A DNA stretch of 64,000 bases from Zobellia uliginosa (GTDB lineage: Bacteria > Bacteroidota > Bacteroidia > Flavobacteriales > Flavobacteriaceae): contig NZ_JAHKPY010000012.1 in NCBI RefSeq assembly GCF_018860745.1, positions 434,001-498,000 on the forward strand, written 5' to 3'. A program made the position numbers and the translations under genes. Below, piece after piece: positions 18,166-58,014 of the stretch. Positions within the stretch are counted from its first letter, which is position 1. Every line of letters begins with the position of its first letter. The notes under the pieces are model-generated. The model searched no databases. It saw only the letters and a list, made by a program, of their open reading frames with translations, and was not told the origin of the DNA.

Positions 18166-20979
18166 CTAATCCTCCGTAGGCTTGGGTATTGGTTTTGACA
18201 TATTATTCTTAGTCTTATCGAATACATAATCGATTACTTGCTGATGTCTCATTTTTGAACGAACTGCACTACCGGCTGCTGGAGAAGCATAGAATCTTCT
18301 TGAAGCGACCCTAAACTTGTTCGAATCACTAAAATGCATCATCATATGGCTCCATGCCCCCATGTTTCTTGGCTCTTCTTGCGCCCAGACCAAATCATCT
18401 GCCTTTTTGTACTTGGCAATAACAGCTTTTATCTTTTCTGATGGCACAGGAAACAATTGTTCTACACGAACCAAAGCAACATCTTCCCTATTCTGTTCTT
18501 CTTTGACCGCTAGTAAATCATAGTAGAATTTACCTGTACAAAACACGACCGATTTCACCTTACTTATCGTAACGGAAGCATCATCTATAACTTCTTGAAA
18601 ACTTCCTGATGCCAATTCATCTACCGTAGACACCGCTTTTGGATGTCTCAACAAACTTTTAGGCGTAAATACAATAAGAGGTTTTCTGAAATTTACTTTC
18701 ATCTGCCTTCTCAAGATATGGAACATCTGTGCTGGTGTAGAAACATCTGCAATATACATGTTGTCTCTTGCACACAGTTGCAAGTACCTTTCCATACGAG
18801 CTGAAGAATGTTCTGCTCCCTGACCTTCATACCCATGCGGAAGCAACATCACCAAACCGTTCTGCAATTTCCATTTATCCTCTGCTGCAGAAATATACTG
18901 GTCAATCATAATTTGGGCCCCATTACTGAAATCTCCAAATTGCGCTTCCCAGATGGTTAGTGAATTAGGACTGGCCATGGCATAACCGTAGTCAAAACCA
19001 ACCACACCATACTCTGATAATAATGAATTATAAATTTGAAATTTTGCTTGTTTCTCACTCAAATGATTAAGCAATATAACCTCCTCTTCACTTTCTTCCA
19101 CCTTCATTACGGCATGTCTGTGCGAAAACGTACCACGCTCCACATCTTGACCTGACATACGAACCGCATAACCTTCTTGCAATAATGTACCATAGGCCAA
19201 CAATTCTCCCATGGCCCAGTCCAACCTATCAGACTCGAAAAACATTTTCTTGCGATCCCTTATAAGTTTATCAACCTTACGTAGGAATTTTTTATCTTTT
19301 GGAAGCTCCGTAATAACCTTTGCTATTTTGGTAAGCTCTTTTTTATCGAAAGTAGTATCTACTTTCTCCATCATTTCCCACTCACGAACGTTAACAAAGC
19401 CTTTCCATTCATCGGCCATGAACGGGGTTATTTCCGTTTTGTCCTCTTTTCGGGAATCTACAAGTTCTTCCTCTAGAGAAGCCTTATATTCCTCTTCCAA
19501 CTTTTTAACAAAGTCTTCTTCTATTATACCTTCGGCCAATAACTTCTGCGCATAAATATCACGCGGATTTTGGTGCTTGGCTATGGCCTTATATAGTTTT
19601 GGCTGCGTAAAACGCGGCTCATCACCTTCGTTATGACCATATTTTCTATACCCTAACAAATCAATAAATACATCTCTATTAAAACGCATACGGTATTCCA
19701 ATGCAAAAAGCGATGCATGTACAACAGCTTCCACATCATCTGCATTTACATGTAAGACAGGACTTAAGGTTACCTTTCCAACATCCGTACAATAGGTAGA
19801 CGTACGAGCATCTAAATAGTTCGTTGTAAAGCCAATTTGGTTATTAACTACTATATGTATGGTACCATTGGTCTTATACCCGTCTAGATTGGCCATTTGC
19901 ACCAATTCATAAATAAGCCCTTGACCAGCAATTGCGGCATCTCCATGTACAACTATAGGAAGTACTTTTGAAAACTCATCTGGAAAATGGGCATCTTGCT
20001 TTGCACGTGCAATACCTTCTACCACTGCACCAACCGTCTCTAAGTGAGAAGGGTTAGGAGCAATGTTCATCTTTATTTTTTTGCCATTATCAGTTTTACG
20101 ATCAGAGGTCCAACCTAGGTGGTATTTTACATCGCCATCAAAAATCTCTTGCTCATAATCTTTACCATCAAATTCACTAAATATATCTTTTGCCGCCTTG
20201 CCAAAGATATTGGTAAGCACATTTAGTCTACCTCTATGTGCCATACCCATTACAAACTGTTCCACACCTAACTCAGCAGCACGCTCAACAACAGTATCAA
20301 GAGCAGGAATCAATGACTCACCGCCCTCTAAAGAAAATCGTTTTTGGCCAACATACTTGGTATGCAAAAACCCTTCAAAGGAAACCGCTTGATTTAGTTT
20401 TCTAAGAATTCGTCTTTTATGCTCCGCATCAAATTTTGGATGATTATCATTAACGTTCAACCACGTCTGTATCCACTCAATACGCTCTGGCTTACGAATA
20501 TACATATACTCTACACCAATAGCATCGCAGTATATACGACGTAGATGCCCTATGATTTCTTTTAAAGTATTGGCTCCTATACCAATAACATCACCGGCAC
20601 TGAAGACCGTATCCATATCACTTTGTGAAAGGCCAAAATTTTCGATATCAAGCGTTGGCTCATATTGCCTACGCTCTCTAACAGGGTTGGTTTCAGTAAA
20701 TAAATGTCCCCTACTTCGATAACCATCTATCAAACGAATGACCTGAAACTCCTTTTGAAGAGATTGTGGCATTGCCGCAACTCCATTTTGTTGTGTACCG
20801 TTTTCGGCTAATAAAGCATCAAGATCCAACCCATCTAGCGCCGACTCCGTTCCAAAATCAAAACCTTGGAAAAAAGCGCGCCAACTAGGCTCAACACTAT
20901 CGGGGTTAATAAGATATTTGTCGTATAATTCCGCAAAAAAAGAAGTATGAGCGGTATTTAGAAAGGAATATTTGTCCAT
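18166..20979 (-). CDS. sucA: 2-oxoglutarate dehydrogenase E1 component
   Basis: This thiamine diphosphate enzyme decarboxylates 2-oxoglutarate and passes the succinyl group to the E2 lipoyl arm. The N-terminal FLNTAHTSFFAELYDKYL segment, GMAHRGRLNVL, the ThDP-binding GDAAIAGQG region and the C-terminal transketolase-like half are present. The frame is open to an ATG at 21057, but a promoter box lies at 21012-21019, downstream of that codon. The ATG at 20979 (MDKYSFLNTAH) therefore fits best, giving 937 aa. It forms an operon with sucB. Confidence 0.97.
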   Translation of the reverse strand: MDKYSFLNTAHTSFFAELYDKYLINPDSVEPSWRAFFQGFDFGTESALDGLDLDALLAENGTQQNGVAAMPQSLQKEFQVIRLIDGYRSRGHLFTETNPVRERRQYEPTLDIENFGLSQSDMDTVFSAGDVIGIGANTLKEIIGHLRRIYCDAIGVEYMYIRKPERIEWIQTWLNVNDNHPKFDAEHKRRILRKLNQAVSFEGFLHTKYVGQKRFSLEGGESLIPALDTVVERAAELGVEQFVMGMAHRGRLNVLTNIFGKAAKDIFSEFDGKDYEQEIFDGDVKYHLGWTSDRKTDNGKKIKMNIAPNPSHLETVGAVVEGIARAKQDAHFPDEFSKVLPIVVHGDAAIAGQGLIYELVQMANLDGYKTNGTIHIVVNNQIGFTTNYLDARTSTYCTDVGKVTLSPVLHVNADDVEAVVHASLFALEYRMRFNRDVFIDLLGYRKYGHNEGDEPRFTQPKLYKAIAKHQNPRDIYAQKLLAEGIIEEDFVKKLEEEYKASLEEELVDSRKEDKTEITPFMADEWKGFVNVREWEMMEKVDTTFDKKELTKIAKVITELPKDKKFLRKVDKLIRDRKKMFFESDRLDWAMGELLAYGTLLQEGYAVRMSGQDVERGTFSHRHAVMKVEESEEEVILLNHLSEKQAKFQIYNSLLSEYGVVGFDYGYAMASPNSLTIWEAQFGDFSNGAQIMIDQYISAAEDKWKLQNGLVMLLPHGYEGQGAEHSSARMERYLQLCARDNMYIADVSTPAQMFHILRRQMKVNFRKPLIVFTPKSLLRHPKAVSTVDELASGSFQEVIDDASVTISKVKSVVFCTGKFYYDLLAVKEEQNREDVALVRVEQLFPVPSEKIKAVIAKYKKADDLVWAQEEPRNMGAWSHMMMHFSDSNKFRVASRRFYASPAAGSAVRSKMRHQQVIDYVFDKTKNNMSKPIPKPTED

Positions 20980-35682: not shown

Positions 35683-35724
35683 AAATAAAGAAGCCTTTCA
35701 GTAAATTGAAAGGCTTCTTTATTT
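35683..35724. terminator. bidirectional terminator between ackA and the tRNA-Leu copy
   Basis: A perfect 18-bp stem (35683-35700 with 35707-35724) encloses a 6-nt loop. A-run and T-run ends serve both strands. Similar GAAGCC-type hairpins follow the other tRNA-Leu remnants. Confidence 0.92.
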
Positions 35725-35806
35725 TGTAGGCGCAGAGACTCGAACTCTCACACCTTGCGCAACTAAATCCTAAGTCTAGCGTATCTACCAATTCCACCAC
35801 GCCTGC
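35725..35806 (-). pseudogene. degenerate tRNA-Leu (UAG) copy
   Basis: The minus strand gives an 82-nt tRNA-Leu-like sequence with loop CTTAGGA (anticodon UAG) and an intact T loop. Compared with the copy at 40300-40381 it has a C2-A71 mismatch in the acceptor, a G49-G65 mismatch in the T stem and a broken variable-arm stem. Its upstream -7 box has been replaced (AAAAATTG instead of TATATTTG). It may still be charged at low level, but it looks like a decaying copy. Confidence 0.65.
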
Positions 35807-35830
35807 ATCTCCAAATTAAATTGGGAGGCA

Positions 35831-40295: not shown

Positions 40296-40299
40296 ATTG

Positions 40300-40381
40300 T
40301 ACAGGCGGAGAGACTCGAACTCTCACACCTTGCGGCACTAGATCCTAAGTCTAGCGTGTCTACCAATTCCACCACGCCTGC
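40300..40381 (-). tRNA. tRNA-Leu (UAG)
   Basis: The minus strand folds into an 82-nt class II tRNA: acceptor GCAGGCG with CGCCTGT (one G-U pair), perfect anticodon stem CTAGA/TCTAG around CTTAGGA (anticodon UAG), variable arm with a GCC/GGT stem, and perfect T stem GAGAG/CTCTC. It has its own promoter box and terminator, and is the functional copy. Confidence 0.94.
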
Positions 40382-53254: not shown

Positions 53255-54018
53255 TTCCGAACGGGTTTATTCTGAATGACTCTGTAAAGTACAGGTCTAC
53301 TAGGGCTAGCGTCATTATCAAAAGGCGCCACTTGCAGATTTAATATATAGGTACCATCTTCAATCGTATTGGCCACGTAGATAAATTCCGTAATTGTAGC
53401 TTGTTTTCTAATTTTACCTCCAAAATTCCAAAATACCTTGTGTGATACTAAGGCACCATTGTCTTTTTCCTTATCTATGGAAGGAAGATCTACCAACAAA
53501 TGCTCTACTCCTTTCTCCACTAAAAACTCCGTAGCCTCTTGCGTTAGATATGGAGGATTGGTATGTGCATACTGGCGTGATTTTTTCTGCCTCATATTGG
53601 GAAGGGTTCGTATGACCACGGCCTCCCTTTTTTTATTACCCAAAGCGTACTTTAGCTGCTTTTTTGAAACAACTAAATCATTATCAAACATTTCCGGGGC
53701 TACGGTAATTACTTCCGCGAGAAAGAAATACTGCTTTAGATTTTTATTGATGGAGTGAAATTCTTCGCTTATATGGCCCACACATTCGGTATGCGTTCCG
53801 TGCGCATGTGGGTTAAAAGAAATATCATTGAAATTAATGGAAGCCCCTTCGGACACCTTACCCACAAAACCTTTTTCCTCGTGAGGTTGAATTGTTGGTG
53901 GATCTACATACCATGCGTTTACATTATCCACACCATTTTTTATAACGATGGATATATCCAAAGGCTTTGTAAGGTCTATAGGGTAATTTTTTGTTCTATG
54001 TTTAATAGTGGCAATCAT
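53251..54018 (-). CDS. cyclase family protein (kynurenine formamidase-like)
   Basis: The 255-aa protein contains the conserved metal-binding motif HAHGTHTECVGH near residues 72-83 (HxGTHxDxxxH with Glu in place of Asp), the hallmark of the cyclase/kynurenine formamidase family, and a C-terminal conserved block. Members hydrolyse cyclic or formylated amides. No tryptophan catabolism gene is nearby, so the substrate is unclear. It is the first gene of a four-gene run (cyclase, DUF4260, DUF4230, Dabb). Confidence 0.87.
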   Translation of the reverse strand: MIATIKHRTKNYPIDLTKPLDISIVIKNGVDNVNAWYVDPPTIQPHEEKGFVGKVSEGASINFNDISFNPHAHGTHTECVGHISEEFHSINKNLKQYFFLAEVITVAPEMFDNDLVVSKKQLKYALGNKKREAVVIRTLPNMRQKKSRQYAHTNPPYLTQEATEFLVEKGVEHLLVDLPSIDKEKDNGALVSHKVFWNFGGKIRKQATITEFIYVANTIEDGTYILNLQVAPFDNDASPSRPVLYRVIQNKPVRK

Positions 54019-54108
54019 AAATTTATTCTGTTTTAGACCTTTTGTTGGGGATTTAAACTACAATGGTCTTTTCTGGCGTGAAATTACTACACACGTTCAT
54101 TTCTGAAT

Positions 54109-55242
54109 CTACTCCAAATTTACCATAAAAAGGTCGGATGCGAGTCCGTCAGCTAAAAAACGACCTTTTTGAGTCGTTAACAAGGTATCACCATCAATAT
54201 AGAGAAAATGATCCTGAAGGTGTTTTTCGGCCTGCATTAAGGCATAATCATAAAAAAAATTACCAAAATCAGATTTAATTTTCGAAAGCGACACGCCCCA
54301 AATGGTACGCAGCCCCGTCATGACATATTCGTTGTAGGTATCCGTAACGGATAAGACTTCCGTTTCCATGGGAAGTTCCCCTTGTTCTATCGCTTTCAAA
54401 TATTTGGGATTGTTATTAATATTCCAACCGCGGCGAACACCATCATAGGAATGTGCAGACGGACCAATACCTATATATTTTTTCTGTTGCCAGTAGGCGG
54501 TATTGTTTCGTGAGAAATAACCAGGTTTCCCAAAATTAGATATCTCATAACTTTCAAAACCAGCGGCTTCCAAGGTTTCTGATAAAATATGGAAATGCGC
54601 CTGAGCTACCTCATCATCAACATTTTTTATCAATCCTTTTTTTATGAAACTGGCAAGTGCCGTTTGCGGCTCTACGGTAAGAGCGTAACTAGAAATATGA
54701 GGAATACCAAAAGAAAGGGCTTTCTGGATGTTTTCACTCCACCGTTCACTGGTCATATCTGGTACACCGTAAATCAAATCGATAGAAATATTATCGAAAT
54801 AAGTGGTGGCTTCTCGAATACAATTTTCTGCTTCAAACGCATTATGTGCCCGGTTCATCAACTTTAAATCTGATTCAAAAAAAGATTGAATACCAATGCT
54901 CAACCGATTGATTGGACTCTCAGAAAGTGCTCTTATTTTTTCCGTGGATAAATCATCCGGATTGGCTTCCAAGGTAATTTCAGGATTATCAGTAACCTTA
55001 TAATTCTTATAAACCTCATCAATAATCGACTGAATTTCTATGGTTTCCAGTACACTAGGCGTTCCACCGCCGAAGTAAATGGTCTCTACCATTTCTTCCT
55101 TAAACTCATCTTTTCGCATCACTAATTCTTTCCGCAAAGCTGCAACCATCGCTTCTTTCTTTCCCATAGATGTCGAAAAATGAAAGTCGCAATAATGACA
55201 AGCTTGCTTGCAAAAAGGAATGTGGATGTAGATGCCGCTCAT
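54109..55242 (-). CDS. hemW: HemW-type radical SAM protein
   Basis: The radical SAM motif CKQACHYCDF (Cys11, 15, 18) sits at the N-terminus, with the YCDFHF variant typical of HemW; the extra residues of true coproporphyrinogen oxidase HemN are absent. The GGGTPSVL motif and a C-terminal HemN-like domain follow in 377 aa. HemW carries heme and inserts it into respiratory enzymes. Its start codon is only 5 bases from the left end of the S23 cassette. Confidence 0.95.
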   Translation of the reverse strand: MSGIYIHIPFCKQACHYCDFHFSTSMGKKEAMVAALRKELVMRKDEFKEEMVETIYFGGGTPSVLETIEIQSIIDEVYKNYKVTDNPEITLEANPDDLSTEKIRALSESPINRLSIGIQSFFESDLKLMNRAHNAFEAENCIREATTYFDNISIDLIYGVPDMTSERWSENIQKALSFGIPHISSYALTVEPQTALASFIKKGLIKNVDDEVAQAHFHILSETLEAAGFESYEISNFGKPGYFSRNNTAYWQQKKYIGIGPSAHSYDGVRRGWNINNNPKYLKAIEQGELPMETEVLSVTDTYNEYVMTGLRTIWGVSLSKIKSDFGNFFYDYALMQAEKHLQDHFLYIDGDTLLTTQKGRFLADGLASDLFMVNLE

Positions 55243-55246
55243 TTTT

Positions 55247-55275
55247 TAGTGTTCAGTGTTCAGTGTTCTATTTTG
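55247..55275. repeat. left terminal inverted repeat with GTGTTCA tandem
   Basis: A 29-base repeat starting TAGTGTTCAGT, in which GTGTTCA occurs almost three times at 55249-55268. The S23 stop codon (55268-55270) lies inside it. Confidence 0.7.
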
Positions 55276-55633
55276 CTCCAAATTTGGCCGGTTTTCGCAT
55301 CATGTATTGAATTAGTTTTCCGACCTCATCGCTTTGTGCTGCGCACTCACTAAAAGTTTTCTCATCAATATATTTACAAGCCAGATCAAATTCTAACCAC
55401 GTTTGTGTTTCTGAATTTTCTGCATCACTATCTGTCAACTTACTAATAAAATGTCTGGGATATAGTCGCTTACGATATGCTTCTGCTACATTAGCACTTA
55501 CACTCCGTGAAGATCTTCTAATTTGATCAGTTAGAGCATAAGTTTCAGTTTTAGGAAATGCTTTCGATATCTCAAAAATTCGCATTGCTAAAGCAAACGA
55601 CTTTTTATAAGCCAATAAATCTTGAAATCTCAT
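55268..55633 (-). CDS. S23 four-helix-bundle protein (23S rRNA IVP type)
   Basis: The 121-aa all-helical protein matches the S23/TIGR02436 family: LLAYKKSFALAMRIFEISKAFP, then ALTDQIRRSSRSVSANVAEAYRK, and a helical C-terminus. Such genes were first found as intervening sequences in 23S rRNA genes; here it is free-standing. The related Avd protein assists diversity-generating retroelements, but no reverse transcriptase is present. Both ends of the gene are within an inverted-repeat-bounded unit. Confidence 0.9.
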   Translation of the reverse strand: MRFQDLLAYKKSFALAMRIFEISKAFPKTETYALTDQIRRSSRSVSANVAEAYRKRLYPRHFISKLTDSDAENSETQTWLEFDLACKYIDEKTFSECAAQSDEVGKLIQYMMRKPAKFGAK

Positions 55634-55664
55634 ATTAATCTATTCTACAAATAATTTCAATTAC

Positions 55665-55693
55665 CAAAACTGAATACTGCCAACTGAACACTA
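55665..55693. repeat. right terminal inverted repeat
   Basis: Its complement starts TAGTGTTCAGT like the left end and agrees with it at 23 of 29 positions. It is 17 bases from the ruvC stop. Confidence 0.65.
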
Positions 55694-55710
55694 ATTACAT
55701 AACCAACAGC

Positions 55711-56265
55711 CTACTTCTTCACCCTTTTCGCATTCTGTTTTACAAAAGCGTCCCAACCTGAGTAGCTTTTACCTACCTCTACTCTGCCTTCGTTATAAAA
55801 ATGACACACTGCAGCAGCAAGACCATCTGTACTATCTAGGTTTTTAGGTAAGGTTTTTAGTCCCAATACACTTTGTAGCATCTTCGCCACTTGTTCTTTA
55901 CTGGCATTACCGTTACCGGTTATGGCCATTTTTATTTTTTTGGGTAAGTATTCCGTAATGGGAATTTCTCGTGAGAGTCCGGCCGCCATGGCTACCCCTT
56001 GTGCACGACCCAGTTTTAGCATAGACTGTACGTTCTTCCCAAAAAACGGTGCTTCTATGGCAATTTCATCTGGGTTGTACGTGTCAATAAGTTCTATGGT
56101 ACGTTCAAAAATGAGTTTTAACTTTACGTAGTGGTCATTATATTTTTTGAGCATCAATTCATTCATCTGAATGAACTCCATTTTCTTGCCTACCACTTTT
56201 ATTAGACCGAAGCCCATTATGGTAGTTCCGGGGTCAATACCGAGTATGATTTTTTCTGTAGCCAA
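55711..56265 (-). CDS. ruvC: Holliday junction endonuclease RuvC
   Basis: RuvC cuts Holliday junctions with RuvAB. The RNase H-like fold residues are visible: GIDPGTTIMGFG with catalytic Asp11, EIAIEAPFFGKN near 67, and the C-terminal DSTDGLAAAVCHFY with the last acidic pair. The length of 184 aa is normal. It follows the lipoprotein gene by 10 bases. The S23 cassette lies directly downstream. Confidence 0.96.
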   Translation of the reverse strand: MATEKIILGIDPGTTIMGFGLIKVVGKKMEFIQMNELMLKKYNDHYVKLKLIFERTIELIDTYNPDEIAIEAPFFGKNVQSMLKLGRAQGVAMAAGLSREIPITEYLPKKIKMAITGNGNASKEQVAKMLQSVLGLKTLPKNLDSTDGLAAAVCHFYNEGRVEVGKSYSGWDAFVKQNAKRVKK

Positions 56266-56275
56266 ATGTTGTATT

Positions 56276-56746
56276 TTATTGGAGTACTATGGGAATTCTA
56301 AATTTTGCCCTTACCGGAATACCTCGTTTTAAAGCAGGTTCAATCTTAGGCAAACCGTTTAGGCTATTTTTAATGTGCTTGTCAAAATTGGGAAGCTGGG
56401 TTTCCGTTACACTTCCCTTATCGATATTTAAAAGAGAAATAGCTCCTGAAGCCTCCATTAAAAAGTCGACAAAAATAGTATCCTTTATTGCTCCCTGAAC
56501 CACAAAATCCGATTCTTCCAATGTTTTTGAAAAGTGCTTCATAAGGGAAGTCATAAAGCATTGTTTTTGCTCCTGTTTGGAAGCTGTTTCGTCACAATCG
56601 GTAAAAAGTGGATATTGGTCCACATCTTCCCAATCGATACTCAATATCTCTTTATTGACCAATTCTTGAGTTTTCTTTTCCCTTGAAGCCGACGTATTAC
56701 ATGCGGTCAGCAAGAACAGAAAACATAAGATTGTGAGGTTTCGCAT
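56276..56746 (-). CDS. lipoprotein with TonB-C-like domain
   Basis: A lipobox (LLTAC, Cys16) and 156 aa. The YPLFTDCDETASKQEQKQCFM segment resembles the FPGCENATDQRACFQKSM segment of the M56 protein at 58018-59430, followed in both by a domain ending in PVRAKFRIPIVL or PFSIPITFKL. This is the TonB C-terminal-like fold common in Bacteroidota envelope proteins. There is no transmembrane helix or TonB box, so it cannot act as a normal TonB. Role unknown. Confidence 0.75.
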   Translation of the reverse strand: MRNLTILCFLFLLTACNTSASREKKTQELVNKEILSIDWEDVDQYPLFTDCDETASKQEQKQCFMTSLMKHFSKTLEESDFVVQGAIKDTIFVDFLMEASGAISLLNIDKGSVTETQLPNFDKHIKNSLNGLPKIEPALKRGIPVRAKFRIPIVLQ

Positions 56747-56874
56747 TGCCCTAAATTCTAGGCGGAAATTACGATTTTTTGTGGAGGTTTGTGCTATGAA
56801 TCACTATTCACGAAAGGAAAATACCCCAAAAAAGCAGTTTTCAATAAGAAAATGTAATTTAAAAACGGGAGTGG

Positions 56875-58014
56875 TTATTTTACATCATAATGGATTTCCT
56901 CTTTTAATTCAGAAATACGCTTTTTTACCATTTTGGACATATAGTCATTTTTATCACCAAAGCTCTCGTCAAATTTTTCATAATACGTTAATTTAATTTT
57001 GGGGTCTTTGTAATACTGATCAGCTACTGTACACACATTATGATAGACCAGAGCGTCATTCGGATCTTCTTGATGTGCCAATTTGTAGTATTTCAAAGCC
57101 TTTTTCATATCTCCTTTGTTTCTTGCGATTCCCGCCAAGGATATATACTCATGCAGCAAAAATGGTTTTTGTACTGCAATAGACTCTTGAATATAGTATT
57201 GCGCACTATCTATCTGTTTATCTTTCCAAAATACATGCCCTAAATTAAAATAAGCCTCCGAATTTTCATCATTTAATTCCAAAACCTTTTTATAGTTGAT
57301 TTTTGCCTTTTCAAACTCCCAATCCTTGAAATAGCAATAAGCCAGTTTCTCATAGATATACTCTTTGTGTTCGCCCAGTTCAATTAACTTCTCAAAGTAG
57401 AAAATAGCTTTAACATACTCATCATTATTATAATAGGTCAGCGCCTTTAAATTTATTAGTGCCACATCATTTTCATAAAATCGGAGCCCACGGTCAATGA
57501 ACGTTAAAGCAGAATCTTTCTCTCGTTGCCCTACATAATACTTACTCAATTGAAACAAACTTCTTAAATGGGTACTATCTGTTGCTGTGGCATTTTTATA
57601 AGAGACTATACTTTTCTCAACATTCTTTTGTTCACGAAAGGTCTCTCCTAAATAATAATGATACTCTGGGTTGTCATTTGCAACTTTGGTCAACTCTAAA
57701 AAAAGACTTTTTGCATTTTTAAAATCCTTGGTCTTCAGAAAGAGTTTCCCCAATTCAAATTTTGCTATTTGTAACGTCGTTTCTTTAGAAAGCACATTTT
57801 GGTATTGCGCTATGGCTTTTTCATAATTGCCAATAGCGTTATAGGCCCTTGCAATCTGTAAAGTAGAAGTAATGGAACCATCTTCCGCATAATGGTTAAT
57901 AGCCTTAATGTAGTTACCTGTAGCGTAGAGACTATCCGCCACTTTGGAATTTGCTATTTGACCATCCGCCTTAGTATAGCATACAAATAAAAAAATAAAC
58001 AATAGGGCTCTCAA
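56875..58014 (-). CDS. exported TPR protein
   Basis: A signal peptide (MRALLFIFLFVCYTKADGQ) is followed by about ten tetratricopeptide repeats of 34 residues over residues 25-370, with typical YN-IGNYEKAIAQYQ and YFNLGHVFWKDKQIDSA cores. TPR arrays bind partner proteins, and the product acts in the periplasm or at the envelope. It lies 3 bases downstream of the M56 gene of BlaI/M56 locus 2, so the three genes form one operon. Confidence 0.9.
   Translation of the reverse strand: MRALLFIFLFVCYTKADGQIANSKVADSLYATGNYIKAINHYAEDGSITSTLQIARAYNAIGNYEKAIAQYQNVLSKETTLQIAKFELGKLFLKTKDFKNAKSLFLELTKVANDNPEYHYYLGETFREQKNVEKSIVSYKNATATDSTHLRSLFQLSKYYVGQREKDSALTFIDRGLRFYENDVALINLKALTYYNNDEYVKAIFYFEKLIELGEHKEYIYEKLAYCYFKDWEFEKAKINYKKVLELNDENSEAYFNLGHVFWKDKQIDSAQYYIQESIAVQKPFLLHEYISLAGIARNKGDMKKALKYYKLAHQEDPNDALVYHNVCTVADQYYKDPKIKLTYYEKFDESFGDKNDYMSKMVKKRISELKEEIHYDVK

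Follow-up and report, generated by a model that had tools for sequence, protein, structure and literature searches.

An S23 gene framed by inverted arms of 7-base units in the ruvC-hemW spacer of Zobellia uliginosa: a probable free-standing IVS-like element

What kind of unit is an S23 gene that lies alone between two inverted repeats in the spacer of two protein genes, and does it move? The question is raised by a 447-nt cassette in a 64-kb stretch of the genome of Zobellia uliginosa, referred to here as the window. On the minus strand, the gene order is ruvC, S23 cassette, hemW. The upstream host gene of this operon-like spacer is ruvC (55711..56265; PF02075, E 8.7e-41), and the downstream host gene codes for a radical SAM protein (54109..55242; PF04055 and PF06969), which we take to be HemW. 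The gene for the S23 (23S rRNA-intervening-sequence) protein (55268..55633, minus strand) encodes 121 amino acids and matches PF05635 with an E-value of 1.9e-29; 2rld and 2gsc are its PDB relatives by profile. A preliminary description, made from the sequence alone, had named S23 as the only gene inside the cassette, with its stop codon within the left repeat, and this was confirmed; neither a recombinase nor a transposase was found inside the cassette by ORFs or Pfam profiles.

The two arms of the cassette (55247..55275 and 55665..55693, both read on the minus strand) are inverted copies of each other with 23 of 29 identical positions, and a repeat search extends the pair to 30 nt with 80% identity. 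Their outer 11 bases (TAGTGTTCAGT) and the inner TTTTG do not differ between the arms, exactly as described before. The arm score was not reached by any of 100 shuffles, and the cassette's own pairing was the top one among 101 downstream flanks. In sense direction, the upstream arm (55665..55693) consists of four 7-base units beginning with AGT (AGTGTTC, AGTTGGC, AGTATTC and AGTTTTG), and the downstream arm (55247..55275), which overlaps the stop codon of S23, carries three GAACACT units, as seen in the repeat and period-7 tests. The GTGTTCA tandem noted earlier at the left end is real, but it is rather part of a 7-base array present on both sides. Likewise, hemW adjoins the cassette as claimed, but with a gap of 4 bases between its start (55242) and the downstream arm instead of 5. 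Apart from the S23 cassette, an AT-rich stretch at 19017 is the sole place in the whole window that passes the period-7 test. In the MFE fold of the cassette the two arms are predicted to pair. The cassette is present in one copy in the genome, and its end motif occurs once genome-wide with two mismatches allowed. No Rfam match was obtained in the region 54000-57000, and the cassette lies between ruvC and hemW, not in an rRNA gene.

The cassette is probably a free-standing IVS-like element, in which an imperfect inverted repeat with tandem 7-base arms carries S23 in its loop and S23 is placed in sense in the ruvC-hemW spacer. It is called IVS-like because the same arm and heptamer anatomy is present in the intervening sequences of Azospirillum and Coxiella, the former computed here and the latter published. 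In Azospirillum lipoferum, the S23 match is located within the 23S rRNA gene on the rRNA strand, in a hairpin of the rRNA opened after model position 1218, and the S23-coding sequence is flanked by 36-nt arms of 7-base units, which are 86% complementary. For the Coxiella IVS, which has a size of 428-444 nt, a stem of 28 bp, three heptamers in tandem ahead of S23, and cleavage by RNase III in vitro have been reported (Warrier et al., PMC4990558). Leptospira is also named there among the hosts of S23-bearing 23S rRNA IVSs (PMC4990558), and the IVP domain has been reported from rRNA insertions of CPR bacteria (PMC11270868). The cassette of the window is thus similar in size (447 nt), encodes PF05635, and has S23 in the loop of terminal inverted repeats made of 7-base units, which are able to close a predicted stem around the ORF. 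Unlike an rRNA IVS, it is found between protein genes and not in an rRNA helix, and the arm sequence of the free-standing class varies from locus to locus, with replacement and exchange at operon spacers. Most likely, the cassette is an IVS-like element residing in an mRNA operon; it has the anatomy of an rRNA IVS but is not to be filed as one, as it lies outside rRNA. The class as a whole combines this anatomy, shared with the 23S rRNA IVS, with sense placement, locus-specific matching arms, presence and absence at a site, and narrow exchange tracts.

The class was defined in 60 genomes of the same order, Flavobacteriales, including the genome of the window, which contain 184 PF05635 matches in total. 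A first set consists of 101 S23 loci with their surroundings from 36 genomes, with the window among them. A second set comprises the best 80 of at least 526 confirmed named loci, ranked by closeness to the S23 of the window, three of which also belong to the first set. Based on gene calling by a simple longest-ORF method, both neighbours are co-directional with S23 in 99 of the 101 loci, compared to 969 of 1296 control gene pairs (75%) on one strand; in the best 80 of at least 526, 77 S23 genes lie in sense between co-directional neighbours.

Period-7 windows, for which a self-similarity of 15 of 21 was required in the first set, make up 7.4% of windows upstream and 11.5% downstream within 50 bp of S23, and 0.04-0.23% at more than 500 bp distance. 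Within 150 bp, such arrays are present upstream of S23 in 37 and downstream in 46 of the 101 loci. The control lags 4, 5, 6, 9, 10, and 11 gave 0-4 loci, lag 8 gave 14 and 11, and lag 14, being twice seven, gave 33 and 37. For the best 80 of at least 526 the corresponding numbers are 26 and 38, with 8 and 6 for lag 6 and 12 and 0 for lag 9. Of the 101 S23 genes, 56 have a 7-base array on one or both sides at a distance of up to 100 bp, compared to 39 of 352 co-directional spacers without S23, while 45 have none at the threshold used.

Furthermore, the arms match each other within their own locus. The mean score of the upstream flank against the reverse-complemented downstream flank of the same locus was 18.7, compared to 10.5 with other loci and 12.7 in direct orientation (n = 101). 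In 80 of the 101 loci at most 5 of 100 shuffles scored as high, and the own pairing was the top of 101 in 38 loci. In the second set (best 80 of at least 526), where many loci occupy common sites, the own score was 20.2 against 16.2 for other loci, with the own pairing on top in 2 of 80. When arms were swapped between same-site pairs, the own arms were better in 74, worse in 38, and tied in 7 of 119 comparisons; in the second set (best 80 of at least 526) these numbers were 558, 251, and 23 of 832. The preference for own arms among same-site pairs is therefore only moderate. By predicted folding energy, own arms are favoured over swapped arms, with means of -35.9 and -23.9.

The 101 loci are distributed over 59 distinct sites, and S23 copies at different sites share at most 78.5% protein identity. 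A tree of 86 S23 sequences (the second set, i.e., the best 80 of at least 526, plus six loci of the first set), which has few columns and many weak forks, covers 12 sites and requires 14 site changes, where 11 is the least possible and 44.2 the shuffled mean. This points to a strongly site-faithful position within the S23 clade, with jumps being rare. Degenerate copies with stops in the matched frame were observed in 13 of the 101 loci. The genome of the window itself harbors a decayed third S23 (C8:500053-500334; L004, L036), which has three stops and well-matched inverted arms (score 26.5; 0 of 100 shuffles as high).

The same anatomy was found outside the Flavobacteriales. Among 30 plasmid records with an S23 match, 21 cyanobacterial ones as well as Azospirillum and Gemmatirosa were examined, leaving three cyanobacterial and four Riemerella records. 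Heptamer arrays are located upstream of S23 in 16 and downstream in 13 of the 21 cyanobacterial loci, some of which occupy a common site (e.g., L245 and L298), so that not all are independent. Their own arms scored 18.8 against 11.2 for the arms of others, the own pairing being on top in 11 of 21. Sense placement between co-directional genes was seen in 9 of 11 loci by ORFs and in 7 of 10 of the remainder by annotation tables. In the Gemmatirosa locus (L297), a search for clear arms found none. In three of the cyanobacterial plasmids (L248, L249, L253), S23 and adjoining 7-base arrays are located co-directionally within CRISPR-cas operons of type III-B and type I-D, with the gene orders cas10-S23-cmr3 and cas6-S23-cas4. 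A search for S23 in phages with one query protein gave no match.

The ruvC-hemW site, with ruvC being located in 59 of the 60 genomes, shows several states. Within the genus Zobellia, two of nine genomes, which are not sisters, carry S23 at this site. In the remaining seven, the spacer has a length of 139-293 nt and contains heptamer arrays, which by eye are inverted at its two ends. In 21 further genomes, which were read by eye and in four of which the hemW pattern had no match, S23 is present in three, namely in G025 with the same lineage and in G018 and G035 with another S23 type (G035 by eye). Two of these 21 have heptamer arrays without S23 (G026, G020), one has an inverted repeat with units of approximately 8 bases (G014), six have bare junctions of 7-24 nt, and five have spacers of 44-88 nt without clear arrays. 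In one of them (G020, L148), a long CGTTATT array without S23 is seen, i.e., a runaway heptamer expansion. Remnants of S23 in the S23-less spacers were also considered; apart from two short exact matches, 13 of 14 tests did not exceed shuffles, the exception being G001 against L050 with 5 of 200 shuffles as high, and this candidate was rejected. The preliminary description had named a pattern that would speak against mobility, with all relatives carrying the same unit at ruvC-hemW and the repeats occurring nowhere else; measured against this pattern, mobility is not refuted.

Compared to its orthologue in the second Zobellia genome (G004), the S23 of the window shows an omega of 0.041, and dS between the two genomes is 0.78 for S23, 1.13 for ruvC, and 1.74 for hemW. 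S23 at ruvC-hemW is thus an old and conserved gene, with either several losses or a long-ago sharing behind its present distribution.

Homing elements, i.e., intron-borne or free-standing homing endonuclease genes, exist in occupied, empty, and degenerate states and carry short co-transferred flanks. The S23 class likewise shows occupied, empty, and degenerate states, and occupied and empty alleles occur in close relatives at ruvC-hemW, as is typical for a homing element. Flanks could be aligned for 87 same-site pairs, S23 itself for 67 of them. In 7 of these 67 pairs the identity of S23 exceeds that of its flanks by 10 points or more, compared to 50 of 3629 control windows, and within none of the seven pairs does a control window match the excess. 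The seven pairs are not independent; by our count they represent 4-5 events at 3 sites, and ruvC-hemW is not among these. The strongest pair is one between genera (L056 in G006 and L082 in G018), with 98.0% identity in S23 and 78.6% in the flanks. The tracts of these seven pairs reach 29-209 nt into the upstream and 13-139 nt into the downstream gene, with edges that are rough by about 20 nt, whereas in an eighth pair, L043-L046 (excess 0.073), the tract broke off within S23 by the same rule. These near-identical cassettes at three other sites, shared between species and once between genera, indicate homing-like exchange and not transposition. Short co-transferred flanks were seen for sister cassettes at those three sites, but not for the window copy, whose pair has an excess of 0.062, equalled by 5 of 68 control windows, and shows no clear transfer tract. 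Unlike homing elements, the cassette encodes no endonuclease, S23 being its only protein.

In 20 of the 87 pairs, the flanks are alignable but S23 is not. Among them are, at one site within the genus, three of four pairs between G001/G003 and G002/G005 (52-58% codon-level identity), which suggests either swaps or strong divergence. Between L039 and L047, a second, longer block of approximately 3.5 kb with 94-98% identity was observed upstream of the S23 site, which would be explained by a further recent exchange involving G001 and G003.

If the cassette is a free-standing IVS-like element, its sense position would lead to transcription together with ruvC and hemW. The arms may then close a stem in the polycistronic RNA, and an RNase III-like cut of the kind published for rRNA IVSs would leave the neighbours unharmed. 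The arms might turn over by 7-base slippage and be kept matched by copying within the hairpin, and S23 could be the nucleic-acid-binding partner of the arms. The unit would reach the same spacer elsewhere, in further genomes, through recombination within the ends of the genes on either side. The arm energies do not distinguish the strands, as the sense stem is the stronger one in 47 and the antisense stem in 53 of the 101 loci. An excess of G-U-compatible mismatches, which is expected if a sense RNA stem is selected, was absent in 75 loci (107 against 177 for the mirror type, a comparison confounded by A-rich flanks). Since the sequence shows no preference for the sense RNA strand, processing and excision of the RNA are inferred, and so is any part that S23 may play in movement.

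The preliminary description had concluded from the terminal repeats that the unit moves or is copied. This holds insofar as the ruvC-hemW site is polymorphic in the genus and sister cassettes elsewhere show S23-centred transfer tracts, but a transposon-like unit whose ends are common to its copies is not supported. A DNA transposon or MITE, with terminal inverted repeats at the ends of a unit that is moved by S23 or by an enzyme acting in trans, agrees with the bounded unit, its presence and absence at ruvC-hemW, and the 59 distinct sites, but we regard it as very unlikely. Several copies with common terminal repeats are lacking, as the end motif is unique in the genome and the arms are specific to each locus. 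Near-identical copies at different sites are absent among the 101 loci, which argues against recent jumps, the copies are old, and their orientation is almost solely sense. No recombinase gene is present inside. Empty sites exist as had been proposed, yet no target duplication was found at the cassette edges: the outer 20 nt of both sides have no word of 4 or more bases in common, and direct repeats of at least 12 bases are absent between the outer flanks, where an old duplication might have decayed. A common source transposase or recombinase had also been proposed; the search in trans, which covered reverse transcriptase, gave no support for it. The least credible, in our opinion, is that the cassette is what remains of a diversity-generating retroelement (DGR) or a group II intron, or a satellite of one, and depends on a reverse transcriptase in trans for its movement, although S23 resembles Avd: it has a weak profile match to bAvd (PF22296, E 4.9e-9, below its cut-off). 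Homology between PF05635 and Avd structures has been stated, and the Avd-like PF05635 is the most frequent Pfam family across the pooled data of a survey of DGRs (PMC10053308). In addition, the sense placement would be compatible with an RNA intermediate. Unlike Avd in diversity-generating retroelements, however, the cassette has no reverse transcriptase nearby, the sole RVT_1 match of the genome being located at C1:86409, far outside the window. A match to RVT_1 (PF00078) is present in just 17 of the 60 genomes and missing in the three with the highest numbers of S23 matches (16, 11, and 10). On this distribution of RVT_1 matches, a reverse transcriptase in trans was rejected.

An ordinary selected accessory gene spread by natural homologous recombination would make S23 inert in its own movement, the heptamers slippage noise, and the narrow tracts the result of short recombination tracts and selection. 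The purifying selection on S23 (omega 0.041), the frequent recombination within the genus seen as mosaic identity, and the location of the measured tracts at orthologous sites, in a test confined to same-site pairs, are in line with it. It does not account for the sense placement, nor for 7-base arms that are inverted and matched within their locus both in two phyla and in an rRNA IVS, and peaks of exchange occur more often at S23 than in control windows, though the pairs are non-independent; we consider it unlikely, but worth keeping in mind. A regulatory or processing hairpin of the operon, in which the heptamer hairpins are functional and S23 is a passenger settled in their loops, is less plausible still. 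Arrays are kept without S23 at ruvC-hemW in 7 of 9 genus genomes, and in spacers without S23, which are considered a fairer control than coding DNA, arrays occur in 39 of 352 where the neighbours are co-directional, in 5 of 116 where they diverge, and in 5 of 78 where they converge. Against this, the only clear array of the window is the one at S23, and six relatives have bare junctions of 7-24 nt. Moreover, sampled stretches (28-base window, at least 20 matches) contain 14 period-7 arrays in 400 kb of S23-positive genomes and 2 in 389 kb of S23-zero genomes. A looser count gave 25 and 8, with 13 of the 25 from one genome (G030), and in the S23-positive set lag 9 reached 6.75 and lag 7 6.25 per 100 kb. 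With G030 dominating and lag 9 on a par with lag 7, this enrichment is weak. In G030 (L291, L292), which has three S23 matches, the 13 arrays are densely packed within 40 kb.

Heptanucleotide repeats as such have been described before, for instance as cyanobacterial STRRs and TAACTGA repeats (PMC4679880) and as GGGAATC and GGGGA(C/T)T repeats (PMC4692102), where two xanthomonads have 70 and 75 inverted pairs. Like these, the arrays described here are intergenic and often located between aligned genes; unlike them, they frame S23. Word searches of the available text of PMC4679880 ('S23', 'four helix') and PMC4692102 ('23S', 'helix bundle') gave no hit, and no link of heptamer arms to free-standing operon S23 genes was found among the listed titles and abstract starts of open-licence papers. 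Starting from the free-standing IVS-like element, a wider reading is possible, though rather doubtful: S23 cassettes may be one trans-phylum class of selfish, homing-like, RNA-tolerated elements, of which the rRNA IVSs would be those that landed in rRNA. In this case exchange and the copying of arms would be driven by S23 acting on heptamer hairpins, and the scattered heptanucleotide repeats of cyanobacterial and flavobacterial genomes would be arms of such cassettes or derivatives without the ORF. Three open questions have so far stood apart, namely where rRNA IVSs come from and what they do, what function S23 has, and what gave rise to the heptanucleotide repeats in cyanobacteria and Bacteroidetes; one anatomy ties them together. 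Dozens of operon sites are available in marine bacteria that can be cultured, so that cutting, pairing of the arms, and transfer are directly testable.

Finally, two tRNA-Leu genes with the same anticodon (tag) are located in the window at 35724-35807 and 40299-40381, approximately 4.5 kb apart.
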